NCBI RefSeq assembly: GCF_900090235.1
Contig: NZ_LT607750.1
Span: 124,001-188,000, forward strand
DNA: 64,000 bases
Direction: 5' to 3'
Origin: Micromonospora echinaurantiaca
Lineage (GTDB): Bacteria > Actinomycetota > Actinomycetes > Mycobacteriales > Micromonosporaceae
Shown: piece after piece, positions 10,202 to 14,389 of the stretch
Layout of the letters: the number at the start of each line of letters is the position of its first letter
How positions within the stretch are numbered: position 1 is the first letter of the stretch
Notes under the pieces: generated by a model
Seen by the model: the letters and a program-made list of their open reading frames with translations, nothing else
The model's database searches: none
What the model was told of the DNA's origin: nothing
Program-made: the position numbers and the translations under genes

Positions 10202-11207
10202 GAACATCCTCGAGGTCCGTGACCTGGTCAAGCACTACCCCGTCACCCGCGGTGTGGTGTTCAAGAAGACGATCGGTCACGTCAAGGCCGTCGACGGGGT
10301 CTCCTTCGACCTGCGGGCCGGCGAGACCCTCGGCGTGGTGGGCGAGTCCGGTTGCGGCAAGTCGACGCTGGCCCGGGTGCTGATGAACCTGGAGCGGCCG
10401 ACCGCCGGCAGCGTGCACTACAAGGGGCAGGACATCTCCAAGCTCTCCGGCGGTGCGCTGCGGCGGCTGCGCCGGCAGATCCAGCTGGTGATGCAGGACC
10501 CGTACACCTCGCTGAACCCGCGGATGACGGTCGGTGACCTGATCGGCGAGCCGTTCGAGATCCACCCGGAGGTGGCTCCCAAGGGCAGCCGCCGGAACAA
10601 GGTCAAGGAACTGCTCGACCTGGTGGGCCTCAACCCGGAGCACATCAACCGGTACCCGCACCAGTTCTCCGGCGGTCAGCGGCAGCGCATCGGCATCGCC
10701 CGGGCGCTGGCCCTGCGGCCCGAGATCATCGTCTGCGACGAGCCGGTGTCGGCGCTGGACGTGTCGATCCAGGCCCAGGTGATGAACCTGCTGGAGCAGC
10801 TGCAGAGCGAGTTCGGCCTGTCGTACGTGTTCATCGCGCACGACCTGTCGGTGGTGCGGCACCTCTCCGACCGGGTCGCGGTGATGTACCTCGGCAAGAT
10901 CGTCGAGGTCGGCACCGAGGACGAGATCTACGAGCGGCCGACCCACCCGTACACCCAGGCGCTGCTGTCGGCGGTGCCGGTGCCGGACCCGACCGTGCGG
11001 GACAACAAGGCGATCATCCGCCTGACCGGTGACGTGCCGTCGCCGGTCAGCCCGCCCTCGGGCTGCCGGTTCCGTACCCGGTGCTGGAAGGCGCAGGACG
11101 TCTGCGCCGAGCAGGTGCCGCTGCTGGAGATCCGGCGGGGCTCGGACCACCCGAGCGCCTGCCACTTCGCCGAGAAGCGGGAGATCGTCGCCACCCACGA
11201 GGCGTGA
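10194..11207 (+). CDS. Peptide ABC transporter ATPase, DppF type
   Basis: This 337-residue ABC ATPase overlaps the previous gene by 8 nt (GTGACTGA). Motifs: Walker [10 protein letters not shown], signature FSGGQRQR, Walker [14 protein letters not shown]-loop IAHDLSVV, and the C-terminal [15 protein letters not shown] extension. It is the last gene of the five-gene importer operon and is followed by a terminator. Confidence 0.95.
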
Positions 11208-11214
11208 CCCCACC

Positions 11215-11257
11215 GGAACCGCCTGCCCGCGTCACCACGACGCCGGCAGGCGGTTCC
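11215..11257 (+). terminator. Terminator of the peptide importer operon
   Basis: A perfect 13-bp stem (GGAACCGCCTGCC and complement) with a 17-nt loop starts 8 bp after the dppF-type stop codon. It lies between convergent genes and may act on both strands. Confidence 0.7.
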
Positions 11258-11285
11258 GCGTCTGCGGGCCCGGCCGGCGTACGGC

Positions 11286-11696
11286 TCAGAGCGGCCCGCG
11301 CCCGGCGCGGAGCAGCAGCAGCGCCAGCTGGGTGCCGTCGGCGCCGAGGGCGACCCGGAAGCGCTCCAGGATCTCCCGCTCGCGGGCGAGCACCAGGCGG
11401 GTGCCGCCGGAGGCCATCCGGGTCGCGCCGACCTCCTGGGAGAGCCGGGCCCGCTCCTGCCACAGCTCGATGAGCGCCCGGTCGATCTCGTCGATCCGCT
11501 CCCGGATCTCCACGATCCGGGCGGCGGCGGACGGTTCCGCGGTGCCGGTGCCCGGGGTGGTCGTGCCGGGCCTGCCGGTCCGGCCCGCCGCGCCGTTGGC
11601 GGTCACGCCGTCGGCCGGGGCGTCGGCTTCCGCGCCGGCGCCGCCGGCGCCGGTCCGAGCCGGTCCGCCGCTCTGCTTCACCACGTCTGTCATCAT
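11286..11696 (-). CDS. Chorismate mutase, AroQ type
   Basis: This is a 136-residue protein (two consecutive ATGs at 11696 and 11693, with GAGGGGT upstream). Residues 1-55 are a Gly/Ala/Thr-rich tail; residues 57-136 are an all-helical chorismate mutase domain: ARIVEIRERIDEIDRALIEL, QERARLSQEVGATRMASGGT, then EREILERFR. The Arg residues and the RMASGGTRLV segment are shared with the short actinobacterial intracellular chorismate mutases such as Rv0948c, which need a DAHP synthase partner for full activity (family knowledge). It converts chorismate to prephenate for Phe and Tyr synthesis. It lies behind a Phe/Tyr-rich leader peptide and terminator that look like an attenuator. Confidence 0.9.
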   Translation of the reverse strand: MMTDVVKQSGGPARTGAGGAGAEADAPADGVTANGAAGRTGRPGTTTPGTGTAEPSAAARIVEIRERIDEIDRALIELWQERARLSQEVGATRMASGGTRLVLAREREILERFRVALGADGTQLALLLLRAGRGPL

Positions 11697-11742
11697 CGGG
11701 TACCCCTCGCGCTGTGGTGCCCGGTGCCGGGATCCCGGGACG

Positions 11743-11779
11743 GAAAAAGCCCCGGGCTCCAGGAGCCCGGGGCTTTTTC
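11743..11779 (-). terminator. Attenuator terminator upstream of chorismate mutase
   Basis: The 18-base arms GAAAAAGCCCCGGGCTCC and their exact complement form a very strong GC stem flanked by A and T runs, so read on the minus strand it ends in CTTTTTC. It lies upstream of both divergent genes (chorismate mutase and pcrA), where no normal gene end is expected, but directly after the leader peptide. That is the position of an attenuator. By symmetry it would also work on plus-strand transcripts. Confidence 0.8.
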
Positions 11780-11793
11780 GTAGGTCTGATCGA

Positions 11794-11859
11794 TCAGGCG
11801 CGACCTACGGCTGCCGGACTCCCGGAGCCGTAGTAAAAGTAGAAGCGCTGACCGAACAC
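11794..11859 (-). CDS. Phe/Tyr-rich leader peptide (21 residues) of chorismate mutase attenuator
   Basis: GTG 11859 to TGA 11796-11794 encodes VFGQRFYFYYGSGSPAAVGRA. Five of five residues at positions 6-10 are Phe or Tyr (TTC TAC TTT TAC TAC), with another Phe at position 2; TTT is a rare codon in this DNA. The stop is followed within about 15 nt by the attenuator stem. Two smaller pairings in the leader, ACGGCT/AGCCGT and GTAGGTC/GACCTAC, could be the competing structures. Shortage of charged tRNA-Phe or tRNA-Tyr would stall the ribosome at the FYFYY run. No ribosome binding site precedes it, and the promoter spacing suggests a leaderless message. Function is inferred from layout. Confidence 0.7.
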   Translation of the reverse strand: MFGQRFYFYYGSGSPAAVGRA

Positions 11860-11866
11860 GCCGTCG

Positions 11867-11896
11867 AGTATGCCGCCCGGCCCGCGTCCGGCGCAA
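11867..11896 (-). promoter_or_regulatory. Promoter of leader peptide and chorismate mutase
   Basis: On the minus strand TTGCGC (11896-11891) and CATACT (11872-11867) are separated by 18 bp. The first base of the GTG of the leader peptide lies 8 nt past the -10 box, which predicts a leaderless transcript starting at or next to that GTG. Confidence 0.5.
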
Positions 11897-11983
11897 GGAA
11901 ACCGGCAACCCGGCTGCCGGCGGCGGCCCGCCGGGCGTCCACGGCGGGGAAGTGTCCGGCCGGCGGCATAGACTCGCCGTGCG

Positions 11984-14389
11984 ATGCATCCTCTCTTCGA
12001 CATCCCCGCGTCCCCGCCCGCGCCGACGACCACGCCGACGCCTGCGCGGCGGCCCGGGTCCGCCGCTGCCCGCCTGGATCCGCAGGCCCTGCTCACCGGC
12101 CTGAACGGGCCGCAGCGCGACGCGGTCACCCACGCCGGCTCGCCGCTGCTGATCGTGGCCGGCGCCGGCTCGGGCAAGACCCGGGTGCTCACCCACCGGA
12201 TCGCCTACCTGCTCGCCGCGCGCGACGTGCATCCGGGCGAGATCATCGCGATCACCTTCACCAACAAGGCCGCCGGCGAGATGAAGGAGCGGGTGGCCGC
12301 CCTGGTCGGGCCGCGCGCCCGGCTGATGTGGGTGTCGACCTTCCACTCCGCGTGCGTCCGCATCCTGCGCGCCGAGCACGAGCACGCCGGGCTGAAGTCA
12401 ACCTTCTCCATCTACGACGCGGACGACTCGCGCCGGTTGATGCAGCTCGTCGCCCGCGAGTTGGACCTCGACCCGAAGCGCTACCCGGCGCGCGGGCTGG
12501 CCGCCCAGGTCTCCAACCTGAAGAACGAGCTGGTCGACCCGGAGGAGTTCGCCGGCCGCGCCAAGGGCCCGAACGAGCGGGCGCTGGCCGAGGCCTACAC
12601 GCTCTACCAGCGCCGGCTGCGCGAGGCGCACGCGCTGGACTTCGACGACCTGATCATGACGACGGTGCACCTGCTCCAGTCGCACCCGCACGTGGCGGAG
12701 AGCTACCGCCGGCGATTCCGGCACGTGCTGGTCGACGAGTACCAGGACACCAACCACGCCCAGTACGTGCTGATCAAGGAGCTGGTCTCCGGCACCGAGG
12801 GGGTGGAGCCGGCCGAGCTCTGCGTGGTCGGCGACGCCGACCAGTCGATCTACGCGTTCCGCGGCGCGACGATCCGCAACATCCTGGAGTTCGAGCGGGA
12901 CTTCACCGACGCCCGGACGATCCTGCTGGAGCAGAACTACCGCTCCACGCAGACCATCCTGAACGCGGCCAACGCGGTGATCGACCGGAACACCTCGCGC
13001 AAGCCGAAGCGGCTGTGGAGCGAGGCGGGGGCCGGCGAGCAGATCGTCGGCTACGTCGCCGACACCGAACACGCCGAGGCGGACTGGGTGGCCCGGGAGA
13101 TCGACCGGCTGGTCGACGCCGGCGACACCCGCCCCGGCGACGTGGCGGTCTTCTACCGCACCAACGCCCAGTCCCGGGTCTTCGAGGAGGTGTTCATCCG
13201 GGTCGGCCTCCCCTACAAGGTGGTCGGCGGGGTGCGCTTCTACGAGCGCAAGGAGGTCCGCGACGCGCTGGCCTATCTGCGCGCCGTGGTCAACGACGAC
13301 GACACGGTCAGCCTGCGCCGGGTGCTGAACACCCCGCGCCGGGGCATCGGCGACCGCGCCGAGGCGTGCGTGGAGGCGCTCTCCAGCCGCGACCGGATCT
13401 CCTTCGGCGCCGCACTGCGCCGGGCCAAGGACGCGCCGGGCATCTCCACCCGGGCGGCCAACGGGATCGCCGAGTTCGTCGCCCTGCTCGACGGGGCGCG
13501 TGAGCTGGCCGAGACCGGCACCCCCGAGGAGGTGCTGGAGGCGTTGCTGACCCGCTCGGGCTACCTCACCGAGCTGGAGGAGAGCCTGGATCCGCAGGAC
13601 GCCGGCCGGGTCGACAACCTCCAGGAACTGGTCAGCGTCGCCCGGGAGTACACCGAGCGGGTCGAGGCGCTCGGCGCCGAGGGGGAACGGGCCACCGTGG
13701 CCGGCTTCCTGGAGCAGGTCGCGCTGGTCGCCGACGCCGACCAGGTGCCCACCGACGACCCCGACCACCAGGGCGTGGTCACCCTGATGACGCTGCACAC
13801 CGCCAAGGGGCTGGAGTTCCCGGTGGTGTTCCTGACCGGGCTGGAGGACGGCGTCTTCCCGCACCTGCGCTCGCTCGGCGACACCCGCGAGCTGGAGGAG
13901 GAGCGTCGGCTGGCGTACGTGGGCATCACCCGGGCCCGGCAGCGCCTCTACCTCTCCCGGGCGGTCACCCGCTCGGCGTGGGGCGCCCCGGCCTACAACC
14001 CGCCCTCCCGGTTCGTCGAGGAGCTGCCGCCGGAGCTGGTGCGCTGGGAGCGCACCGAGGGGTCGTACACCTCGTGGGGTGGCGGAGGCGGCGGCGTCGG
14101 CGGCCGCGCGGACCGCACGCCCGGCGGGCGTGGCGGCTTCACCGGCGGTACGCCCAAGGCGGCGCAGCTGGCCAAGCGGCTCGGCGTCGACGGCAGCCGG
14201 CTCGCCACCGCGAGCGAGCTGCCGCAGGGGCCGAAGGTGGCCGCCGGCGACCGGGTCAACCACCAGCGCTACGGGCTGGGCCGGGTGCTCGCGGTGGAGG
14301 GGCACGGCCCGAGCGCCCGGGCGCAGATCGACTTCGGCGACCAGACGATGTGGCTGGTGCTGCGGCACGCGCCGCTCGACAAGCTCTGA
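11984..14389 (+). CDS. pcrA: ATP-dependent DNA helicase PcrA/UvrD
   Basis: This is an 801-residue superfamily 1 3'-5' helicase. Motifs: Q motif LNGPQRDAV, Walker A GAGSGKT (60-66), DEYQDTN near 250, GDADQSIYAFRGA, QNYRST, LMTLHTAKGLEFPVVF and EERRLAYVGITRAR. After a Gly-rich linker (about 695-720) the C terminus is the PcrA Tudor-like RNA-polymerase-binding domain (GDRVNHQRYGLGRVLAVEG). It acts in nucleotide-excision repair and in clearing RNA polymerase and recombination intermediates. A TAGACT hexamer at 11969-11974 lies 9 bp before the ATG, so the message probably has a very short leader. Neighbours match the mycobacterial uvrD1 locus. Confidence 0.97.
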   Translation: MHPLFDIPASPPAPTTTPTPARRPGSAAARLDPQALLTGLNGPQRDAVTHAGSPLLIVAGAGSGKTRVLTHRIAYLLAARDVHPGEIIAITFTNKAAGEMKERVAALVGPRARLMWVSTFHSACVRILRAEHEHAGLKSTFSIYDADDSRRLMQLVARELDLDPKRYPARGLAAQVSNLKNELVDPEEFAGRAKGPNERALAEAYTLYQRRLREAHALDFDDLIMTTVHLLQSHPHVAESYRRRFRHVLVDEYQDTNHAQYVLIKELVSGTEGVEPAELCVVGDADQSIYAFRGATIRNILEFERDFTDARTILLEQNYRSTQTILNAANAVIDRNTSRKPKRLWSEAGAGEQIVGYVADTEHAEADWVAREIDRLVDAGDTRPGDVAVFYRTNAQSRVFEEVFIRVGLPYKVVGGVRFYERKEVRDALAYLRAVVNDDDTVSLRRVLNTPRRGIGDRAEACVEALSSRDRISFGAALRRAKDAPGISTRAANGIAEFVALLDGARELAETGTPEEVLEALLTRSGYLTELEESLDPQDAGRVDNLQELVSVAREYTERVEALGAEGERATVAGFLEQVALVADADQVPTDDPDHQGVVTLMTLHTAKGLEFPVVFLTGLEDGVFPHLRSLGDTRELEEERRLAYVGITRARQRLYLSRAVTRSAWGAPAYNPPSRFVEELPPELVRWERTEGSYTSWGGGGGGVGGRADRTPGGRGGFTGGTPKAAQLAKRLGVDGSRLATASELPQGPKVAAGDRVNHQRYGLGRVLAVEGHGPSARAQIDFGDQTMWLVLRHAPLDKL

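Follow-up and report, generated by a model that had tools for sequence, protein, structure and literature searches.

Locus organization

The window, a 64,000-nucleotide stretch of a Micromonospora echinaurantiaca contig (NZ_LT607750.1), includes a gap between two divergent genes, pcrA (11984-14389, plus strand) and a chorismate mutase gene (11696-11286, minus strand), that holds the parts of a putative leader-peptide attenuator. All of these parts are found on the minus strand, at the coordinates where they were first noted (11743..11896), and are given below in the direction of transcription of the chorismate mutase gene:

11891..11896, minus strand: -35-like hexamer TTGCGC, with an 18-nt spacer to the -10 box
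11867..11872, minus strand: -10 box CATACT, 7 nt from the GTG at 11859
11859-11794, minus strand: leader peptide frame, GTG start, 21 codons and TGA, kept in relatives
11830..11844, minus strand: regulatory codons TTC TAC TTT TAC TAC (Phe Tyr Phe Tyr Tyr), read from the sequence
11826..11833, minus strand: 5' arm of helix 1:2, overlapping the last Tyr codons
11814..11822, minus strand: 5' arm of the predicted antiterminator, GGAGUCCGG, pairing with 11762..11770
11805..11812, minus strand: 3' arm of helix 1:2, pairing with 11826..11833
11802..11809, minus strand: 5' arm of helix 2:3, with bases in common with the 3' arm of helix 1:2
11779..11786, minus strand: 3' arm of helix 2:3, GACCUACG, between the leader stop codon and the terminator
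11762..11770, minus strand: 3' arm of the predicted antiterminator, CCGGGCUCC, within the 5' arm and loop of the terminator
11743..11779, minus strand: intrinsic terminator, a perfect 17-bp stem with a 3-nt loop and a U run
11703..11708, minus strand: Shine-Dalgarno-like GAGGGG, 6 nt 5' of the ATG at 11696, identified by reading only
11286..11696, minus strand: chorismate mutase gene, the sole CM_2 match genome-wide

The leader frame encodes the peptide VFGQRFYFYYGSGSPAAVGRA and ends with the TGA at 11794, and 14 nt separate this stop codon from the terminator hairpin. The downstream gene was identified as a chorismate mutase by both NCBIfam (NF005894, 103.1 bits against a cut-off of 73) and Pfam (CM_2, 41.2 against 27), and accordingly is a pathway gene of Phe and Tyr, the amino acids of the leader. 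Thus, the 21-codon frame with the FYFYY run, the strong terminator directly after it and the chorismate mutase gene downstream, all of which the earlier note had claimed, are indeed present, the last of these above both cut-offs.

A search for leaderless, aromatic-rich frames (8-45 codons, at least 4 Phe or Tyr codons per 6, and a [CT]AnnnT box ending 6-7 nt short of the start) retrieved this single frame in the 64-kb window and none in 60 order-1 Markov sequences of equal length. A generic scan scored the terminator as a mere 6-pair stem; the attenuator stretch, folded as the plus strand, lies 4.9 standard deviations below shuffled sequences. No matches at the gathering threshold were obtained across the whole window with release 15 of Rfam, a collection that includes T-box and amino-acid leader families. 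As a separate observation, runs of A and U border the terminator stem at 11743-11779, which could therefore serve as a terminator on either strand, in the gap before pcrA.

Because a generic sigma-70 scan of positions 10500-13500 reported no promoter, the promoter call rests on conservation in relatives. Among the leaders of the family (Micromonosporaceae), CATACT is the -10 box in 161 of 178, 6 or 7 nt separate this box from the start codon in 177 of the 178 (scan range, 5-9 nt), and TTG is found at a spacer of 16-19 nt in 139 of 177, being absent in 38; the start codon is GTG in 169 leaders and ATG in 9. The persistence of the box and of the 6-7 nt spacing upholds the promoter proposed in the earlier note, and places the leader GTG at the predicted +1, that is, on a transcript that is predicted to be leaderless. 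The same note had called a leaderless leader peptide unusual, a view that does not hold for this group of bacteria: seven of the eight leaders listed for Streptomyces lividans in the available part of PMC8079986 are described there as leaderless, and initiation at a 5' ATG or GTG is described as routine in mycobacteria in the consulted sections of PMC4633059.

Conservation of the leader in the Micromonosporaceae

A protein search with the mutase yielded at least 110 confirmed relatives, the best 80 of which were taken as named loci (Micromonospora, Salinispora, Phytohabitans, Asanoa, Actinoplanes, Catenuloplanes and other genera), and protein matches were detected in 99 of 101 family genomes. 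The upstream DNA was read for these 80 loci as well as for 103 of the 107 family-genome matches, with the weak matches in genomes G002, G009 and G010 and the third match in G044 left out; the two sets overlap in species and are not independent. All of these 80 top-ranking loci carry the leader, 79 as found by script and one (L063) as recognized separately, and so do 98 of the 99 family genomes with a protein match. The first scan, which demanded 4 Phe or Tyr codons in 6, missed six of the 80 loci, all of which carry a leader with fewer aromatic codons; overall, the number of Phe and Tyr codons per 6 ranges from 2 to 6 among the family leaders. Phe and Tyr codons occur together in all 177 family leaders for which codons were counted (these counts leave out L063, L167, L174, L176, L179, L182 and the duplicate L081), and Trp occurs in two of the 177, which are the same leader met twice. 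In the 9 nt past the terminator stem, three or fewer T were counted in 24 of the 168 scored leaders, with the other 9 of the 177 unscored. The comparison that the earlier note had proposed, namely whether the aromatic codons and the terminator are kept in relatives, thus comes out in favor of both.

The exception among the 99 genomes, G030, encodes two chorismate mutase copies with divergent aromatic leaders, one with Phe only (L167, LFTGFLGF) and the other with Tyr and Phe (L182, RYAHRFVGY), possibly sensors that split after gene duplication. Second gene copies in other genomes (L174, L176 and L179) have no leader upstream.

Alternative RNA structures and covariation

The earlier note stated that ribosome-mediated attenuation needs exactly the parts that it named. 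These parts are all in place; the list itself was incomplete given that an antiterminator, missing from the note, was also found and covaries. Helix 1:2 and helix 2:3 exclude each other because they have bases in common, and the same applies to the antiterminator and the terminator. A different helix, GUAGGUC:GACCUAC, was considered as the sole antiterminator and rejected: it overlaps the terminator stem by 1 base, and GGAGUCCGG:CCGGGCUCC was preferred because its overlap with the stem is full.

To assess these structures, we aligned 91 of the 93 non-redundant leaders with MAFFT, with no structure fitted (alignment A1; a long atypical leader, L069, and a leader at the end of a sequence stretch, L164, were left out). 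The antiterminator alone is paired in 90.7% of the cells of the 91 sequences. For the antiterminator together with helix 2:3, 89.8% of the cells are paired, against 86.6% in shuffled alignments (a level that 0 of 500 attain) and 22-49% with slid arms, and 36 cells are changed on both sides, against 9.9 in shuffled alignments (0 of 500) and at most 25 in slid versions, although the shuffle test is inflated by relatedness, and the structure was named after viewing the same sequences and is thereby favored over the slid versions. Pair 48:113 is seen as GC, AU, GU, UA and CG, and pair 49:112 as AU, GU, CG, UA and GC, five standard types in each case. The count of antiterminator pairs showing double changes (7) discriminates less well: at least as many were obtained in 17 of 500 shuffles, and 8 in one of the slid versions. 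The outermost pair of helix 2:3 is mostly unpaired or gapped in relatives. Helix 1:2 is paired in 93.6% of the cells of the 91 sequences and shows weak covariation: 401 of 500 shuffles equal it in further pair types and 50 of 500 in the number of doubly changed pairs, and double-change cells are more numerous in two of the slid versions.

The terminator itself is paired in 94.1% of the cells, with covariation above all shuffles. Because the terminator is unpaired at column 112 (pair 112:121) in 20 of the 91 sequences, its pairing alone cannot explain the covariation of the antiterminator. As judged from the alignment, a predicted antiterminator that is mutually exclusive with the terminator exists and has evolutionary support, covarying with the 5' arm of the terminator.

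Distribution outside the family

We used a covariance model of the attenuator element (R1), with strict filters under which weak members are missed. In the genome of M. echinaurantiaca, the model finds one strong copy at 128.8 bits, followed by a next match at 29.9 bits. Within the order, 214 of 298 genomes gave matches (~54 of these belong to the own family), and within the class 54 of 296 did; both totals include false matches, given that six of the examined matches outside the family lack a leader or gene. The outside-family loci that we examined, 57 distinct ones, combine the best-scoring matches with a hand-picked set covering many families (33 stretches, from which L278 and L279 were dropped as repeats of L225 and L235, respectively, and in which L282 is a 10-base placeholder). 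Among these 57 loci, 43 carry a leader before a chorismate mutase gene, 8 carry a leader before a DAHP synthase gene, and 6 are false (L269, L272, L276, L277, L280 and L281), as they lack a leader and tblastn detected neither of the two genes downstream. Phe and Tyr codons are present in all 43 mutase leaders, and Trp in one; in two of the 43 (L250 and L256), the -10 box departs from the search pattern and the leader was assigned by visual inspection. The class-level search also brought up leaders of the TFVFTYG type in family f33, presumably the Streptomycetaceae.

Proposed mechanism of attenuation

Taken as a whole, the locus very probably controls transcription by ribosome-mediated attenuation of the classical type, with a leader peptide that is itself leaderless. 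From the computed parts, conservation and covariation, we infer how it would act, that is, the start site, stalling, termination and the response to Phe and Tyr; the codon content suggests that tRNA-Phe and tRNA-Tyr are sensed jointly. RNA polymerase would start at or beside the G of the GTG, and a ribosome would load on the bare 5' end and translate behind the polymerase. If charged tRNA-Phe or tRNA-Tyr were scarce, the ribosome would halt on the FYFYY codons and cover the 5' arm of helix 1:2, allowing helix 2:3 to form and to bracket the antiterminator GGAGUCCGG:CCGGGCUCC, which would capture the 5' arm of the terminator before the 3' arm is made, such that the chorismate mutase gene would be transcribed. 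If both tRNAs were charged, the ribosome would reach the UGA and cover the arms of helix 2:3, the terminator would form and transcription would stop. If there were no translation, helix 1:2 would form, and the terminator would win likewise.

Folding of the leader RNA with the ribosome-covered nucleotides masked is in partial agreement with this scheme. With no ribosome, the terminator state is better by 12 kcal/mol at full length, and the antiterminator is the best fold when the RNA ends at nt 104, at that length only. With a ribosome on any of aromatic codons 1-4, helix 1:2 is gone and the antiterminator together with helix 2:3 is the best fold for RNA ends at nt 98-108, that is, before the 3' arm of the terminator is complete. 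For RNA ends at nt 112 and 118, the terminator state leads by 2.6-11.1 kcal/mol, and the full-length RNA shows a difference between the states of no more than 3 kcal/mol. A ribosome on the fifth aromatic codon shortens the antiterminator, and the terminator is favored throughout from nt 108. Across all stall positions, RNAs ending at nt 112 and 118 favor the terminator state with a margin of 2.6 to 17.6 kcal/mol, and the difference between the states at full length is +2.0 to -9.5 kcal/mol. Given that the terminator state is favored at nt 112 and 118 despite the stalled ribosome, antitermination would have to be kinetic. For a ribosome on the stop codon, the antiterminator is still the best fold at nt 98-108 when nt 47-76 are covered, and the terminator is favored by 8-15 when nt 43-77 are covered; at full length, the difference is +1.0 or -8.9, set by the assumed footprint. 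The folds thus separate the states imperfectly and are partly decisive; alone, they are no proof of a switch, and the scheme appears plausible.

Alternative explanations

The same set of elements could, in principle, work in other ways. The response might in practice be to tRNA-Phe only, or to tRNA-Tyr only, with the other codons as passengers; such is the behavior of the F-Y-F leader before aroF of Corynebacterium glutamicum, on which Phe limitation acts and Tyr limitation does not according to the consulted part of PMC11802643, and the L167 mutase copy of G030 has a Phe-only leader. The joint presence of Phe and Tyr in all 177 family leaders and in all 43 mutase leaders examined outside the family makes a single sensor unlikely. 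Action at the level of translation, whereby the ribosome position would control mRNA stability or the start of the structural gene rather than termination, has a precedent in the translation-level attenuation by leaderless Cys-rich frames of Mycobacterium smegmatis (Canestrari 2020, as cited in the available text of PMC13236596). With a 17-bp terminator between the leader and the gene, and with a covarying alternative helix that captures the 5' arm of this terminator and not a ribosome-binding site, we consider such action very improbable here.

A reading in which the small frame specifies a peptide with a function of its own, and the hairpin merely ends the small mRNA of that frame, is hardly credible. 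The tail SPAAVGRA does recur in 105 of 177 leaders, but this tail coincides with the RNA arms, and several genera preserve these arms with the tail shifted to a different frame (RPGRRSR, RPSRRSSR, EVRQP), indicating that it is the RNA, not the peptide, that is conserved past the aromatic codons; the covariation with the terminator arm would be left unexplained as well. A published result that counts against the ribosome-mediated transcription attenuator, the reading that we prefer, comes from ilvB of Streptomyces coelicolor, where codon swaps are without effect despite the presence of a leader, as given in the available part of PMC1262725.

A second leader, before type I DAHP synthase

The genome of M. 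echinaurantiaca contains another putative attenuator of the aromatic pathway:

G000:C1:523773-524639, minus strand: type I DAHP synthase (L284), with a leader ~340 nt before the matched domain that contains TAT, TGG and TTT codons

This gene (NCBIfam aroFGH) is preceded by the leaderless frame VTRSYRWFRQPARQPVTSP and then a hairpin with a T run. Type I DAHP synthase matches were found in 38 of 61 family genomes, at 41 places, the best 30 of which were examined. A leader is present at all 30 of these loci, 26 of which also scored positive for a hairpin followed by a T run; the leaders contain Tyr, Trp and Phe in 27 cases and lack Trp in the remaining 3, and these numbers are the same whether the leaders are picked by Phe and Tyr alone or with a bonus for Trp. 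Trp is also present in 7 of the 8 DAHP synthase leaders from outside the family (for example, FWRFYGY and FWFWYG), 5 of the 8 coming from one family. With three amino acids at the entry enzyme and two at chorismate mutase, the codon content of the leaders follows the pathway branch; the amino acids that the two leaders would sense are deduced from these codons.

The choice among synonymous codons in the leaders is distinctive. In the 177 family mutase leaders, TTT accounts for 234 of 368 Phe codons and TAT for 54 of 409 Tyr codons, and in the 30 family DAHP synthase leaders (the best 30 of 41), the counts are 32 of 33 and 30 of 31, respectively; in ten family-confirmed coding stretches of the M. 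echinaurantiaca genome, TTT accounts for 0 of 69 and TAT for 1 of 69, a yardstick taken from this genome only, whereas the leader counts come mostly from other family genomes with common ancestry. Looser yardsticks give TTT counts of 2 of 352 for 36 window frames with GC3 > 0.88, a choice that itself disfavors T-ending codons, and 7 of 142 for the 26 longest window frames with no GC3 filter, some of which may be non-coding. The aromatic codons of the window leader are one TTT, one TTC and three TAC. The other codons before the last aromatic codon end in G or C in 644 of 835 cases. One explanation for the use of TTT and TAT is that slow wobble reading raises the sensitivity of the leader; another is that these codons keep the 5' end unstructured.

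The chances seem to us evenly balanced that actinobacteria possess tiered leaderless attenuators in which the codons match the amino acids that each enzyme supplies and the sensitivity is tuned by U-ending codons (TTT, TAT) that genes of these G+C-rich genomes hardly use. Within the same reading and with the same half confidence, the tiers would consist of Tyr, Trp and Phe before DAHP synthase, and of Phe and Tyr, with no Trp, before chorismate mutase.

Relation to known attenuators

An aroR leader before aroF in C. glutamicum was reportedly described by Neshat in 2014. This F-Y-F leader before the DAHP synthase gene aroF (PMC4046766, PMC11802643) is similar to the element described here in that, as far as the accessible parts of these sources go, it is an actinobacterial attenuator of the aromatic pathway with a Phe-Tyr-Phe leader; it differs in regulating DAHP synthase and in its shorter aromatic run, whereas here chorismate mutase is directly downstream, and its nearer counterpart in M. 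echinaurantiaca is the Tyr/Trp/Phe leader of type I DAHP synthase. In Escherichia coli, pheL-pheA also represents leader-peptide attenuation of a chorismate mutase activity, but pheA, according to the consulted part of PMC11802643, encodes a fused chorismate mutase-prephenate dehydratase, with sensing of tRNA-Phe; here, by contrast, a stand-alone mutase acts before the split between Phe and Tyr, the leader contains both Phe and Tyr codons, and there is no room for a ribosome-binding site. The leader peptides of S. lividans (trpL1, trpL2, ilvL, leuL1, leuL2, metL, thrL and alaL) resemble the present one in that all but one are described as leaderless and several are followed by a terminator, and differ in that none of the eight in Table 4 of the available text of PMC8079986 is for Phe or Tyr or for chorismate mutase. 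Attenuators for trp, leu and ilv have been published for actinobacteria (PMC1262725, available part).

In the open-access literature, we found no report of a chorismate mutase attenuator in actinobacteria. Considering the published attenuators, the leaderless leaders and the F-Y-F leader of aroF, the mutase element is counted within a known class; two features appear worth the attention of specialists, namely the use of U-ending codons and the pair of leaders matched to the pathway branch. The stand-alone chorismate mutase of a large actinobacterial group would gain a concrete switch at the point where the flux splits between Trp and Phe/Tyr, paired with a switch for three amino acids at the entry enzyme. 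The element would also provide a clean model of attenuation that starts from leaderless initiation, the recurrent TTT and TAT codons would permit a direct test of wobble-read codons setting the threshold of an attenuator, and an applied use could be found in precursor supply for aromatic natural products.

Other aromatic-pathway genes

A scan of the M. echinaurantiaca genome for leaderless frames located 5-8 nt after a -10-like box returned none before the genes for prephenate dehydratase, prephenate dehydrogenase, type II DAHP synthase and a PabB-like protein (L318). A CFF frame before an anthranilate synthase-like gene (L317) is weak and was not accepted as real. Finally, ~500 nt before the chorismate-binding domain of another anthranilate synthase-like gene (L319), there is a leaderless frame, MLARLTCWWPADPAAIPRA, that contains two Trp codons and is accompanied by inverted repeats rich in G+C; the arrangement resembles a Trp attenuator, but one lacking a distinct U run.
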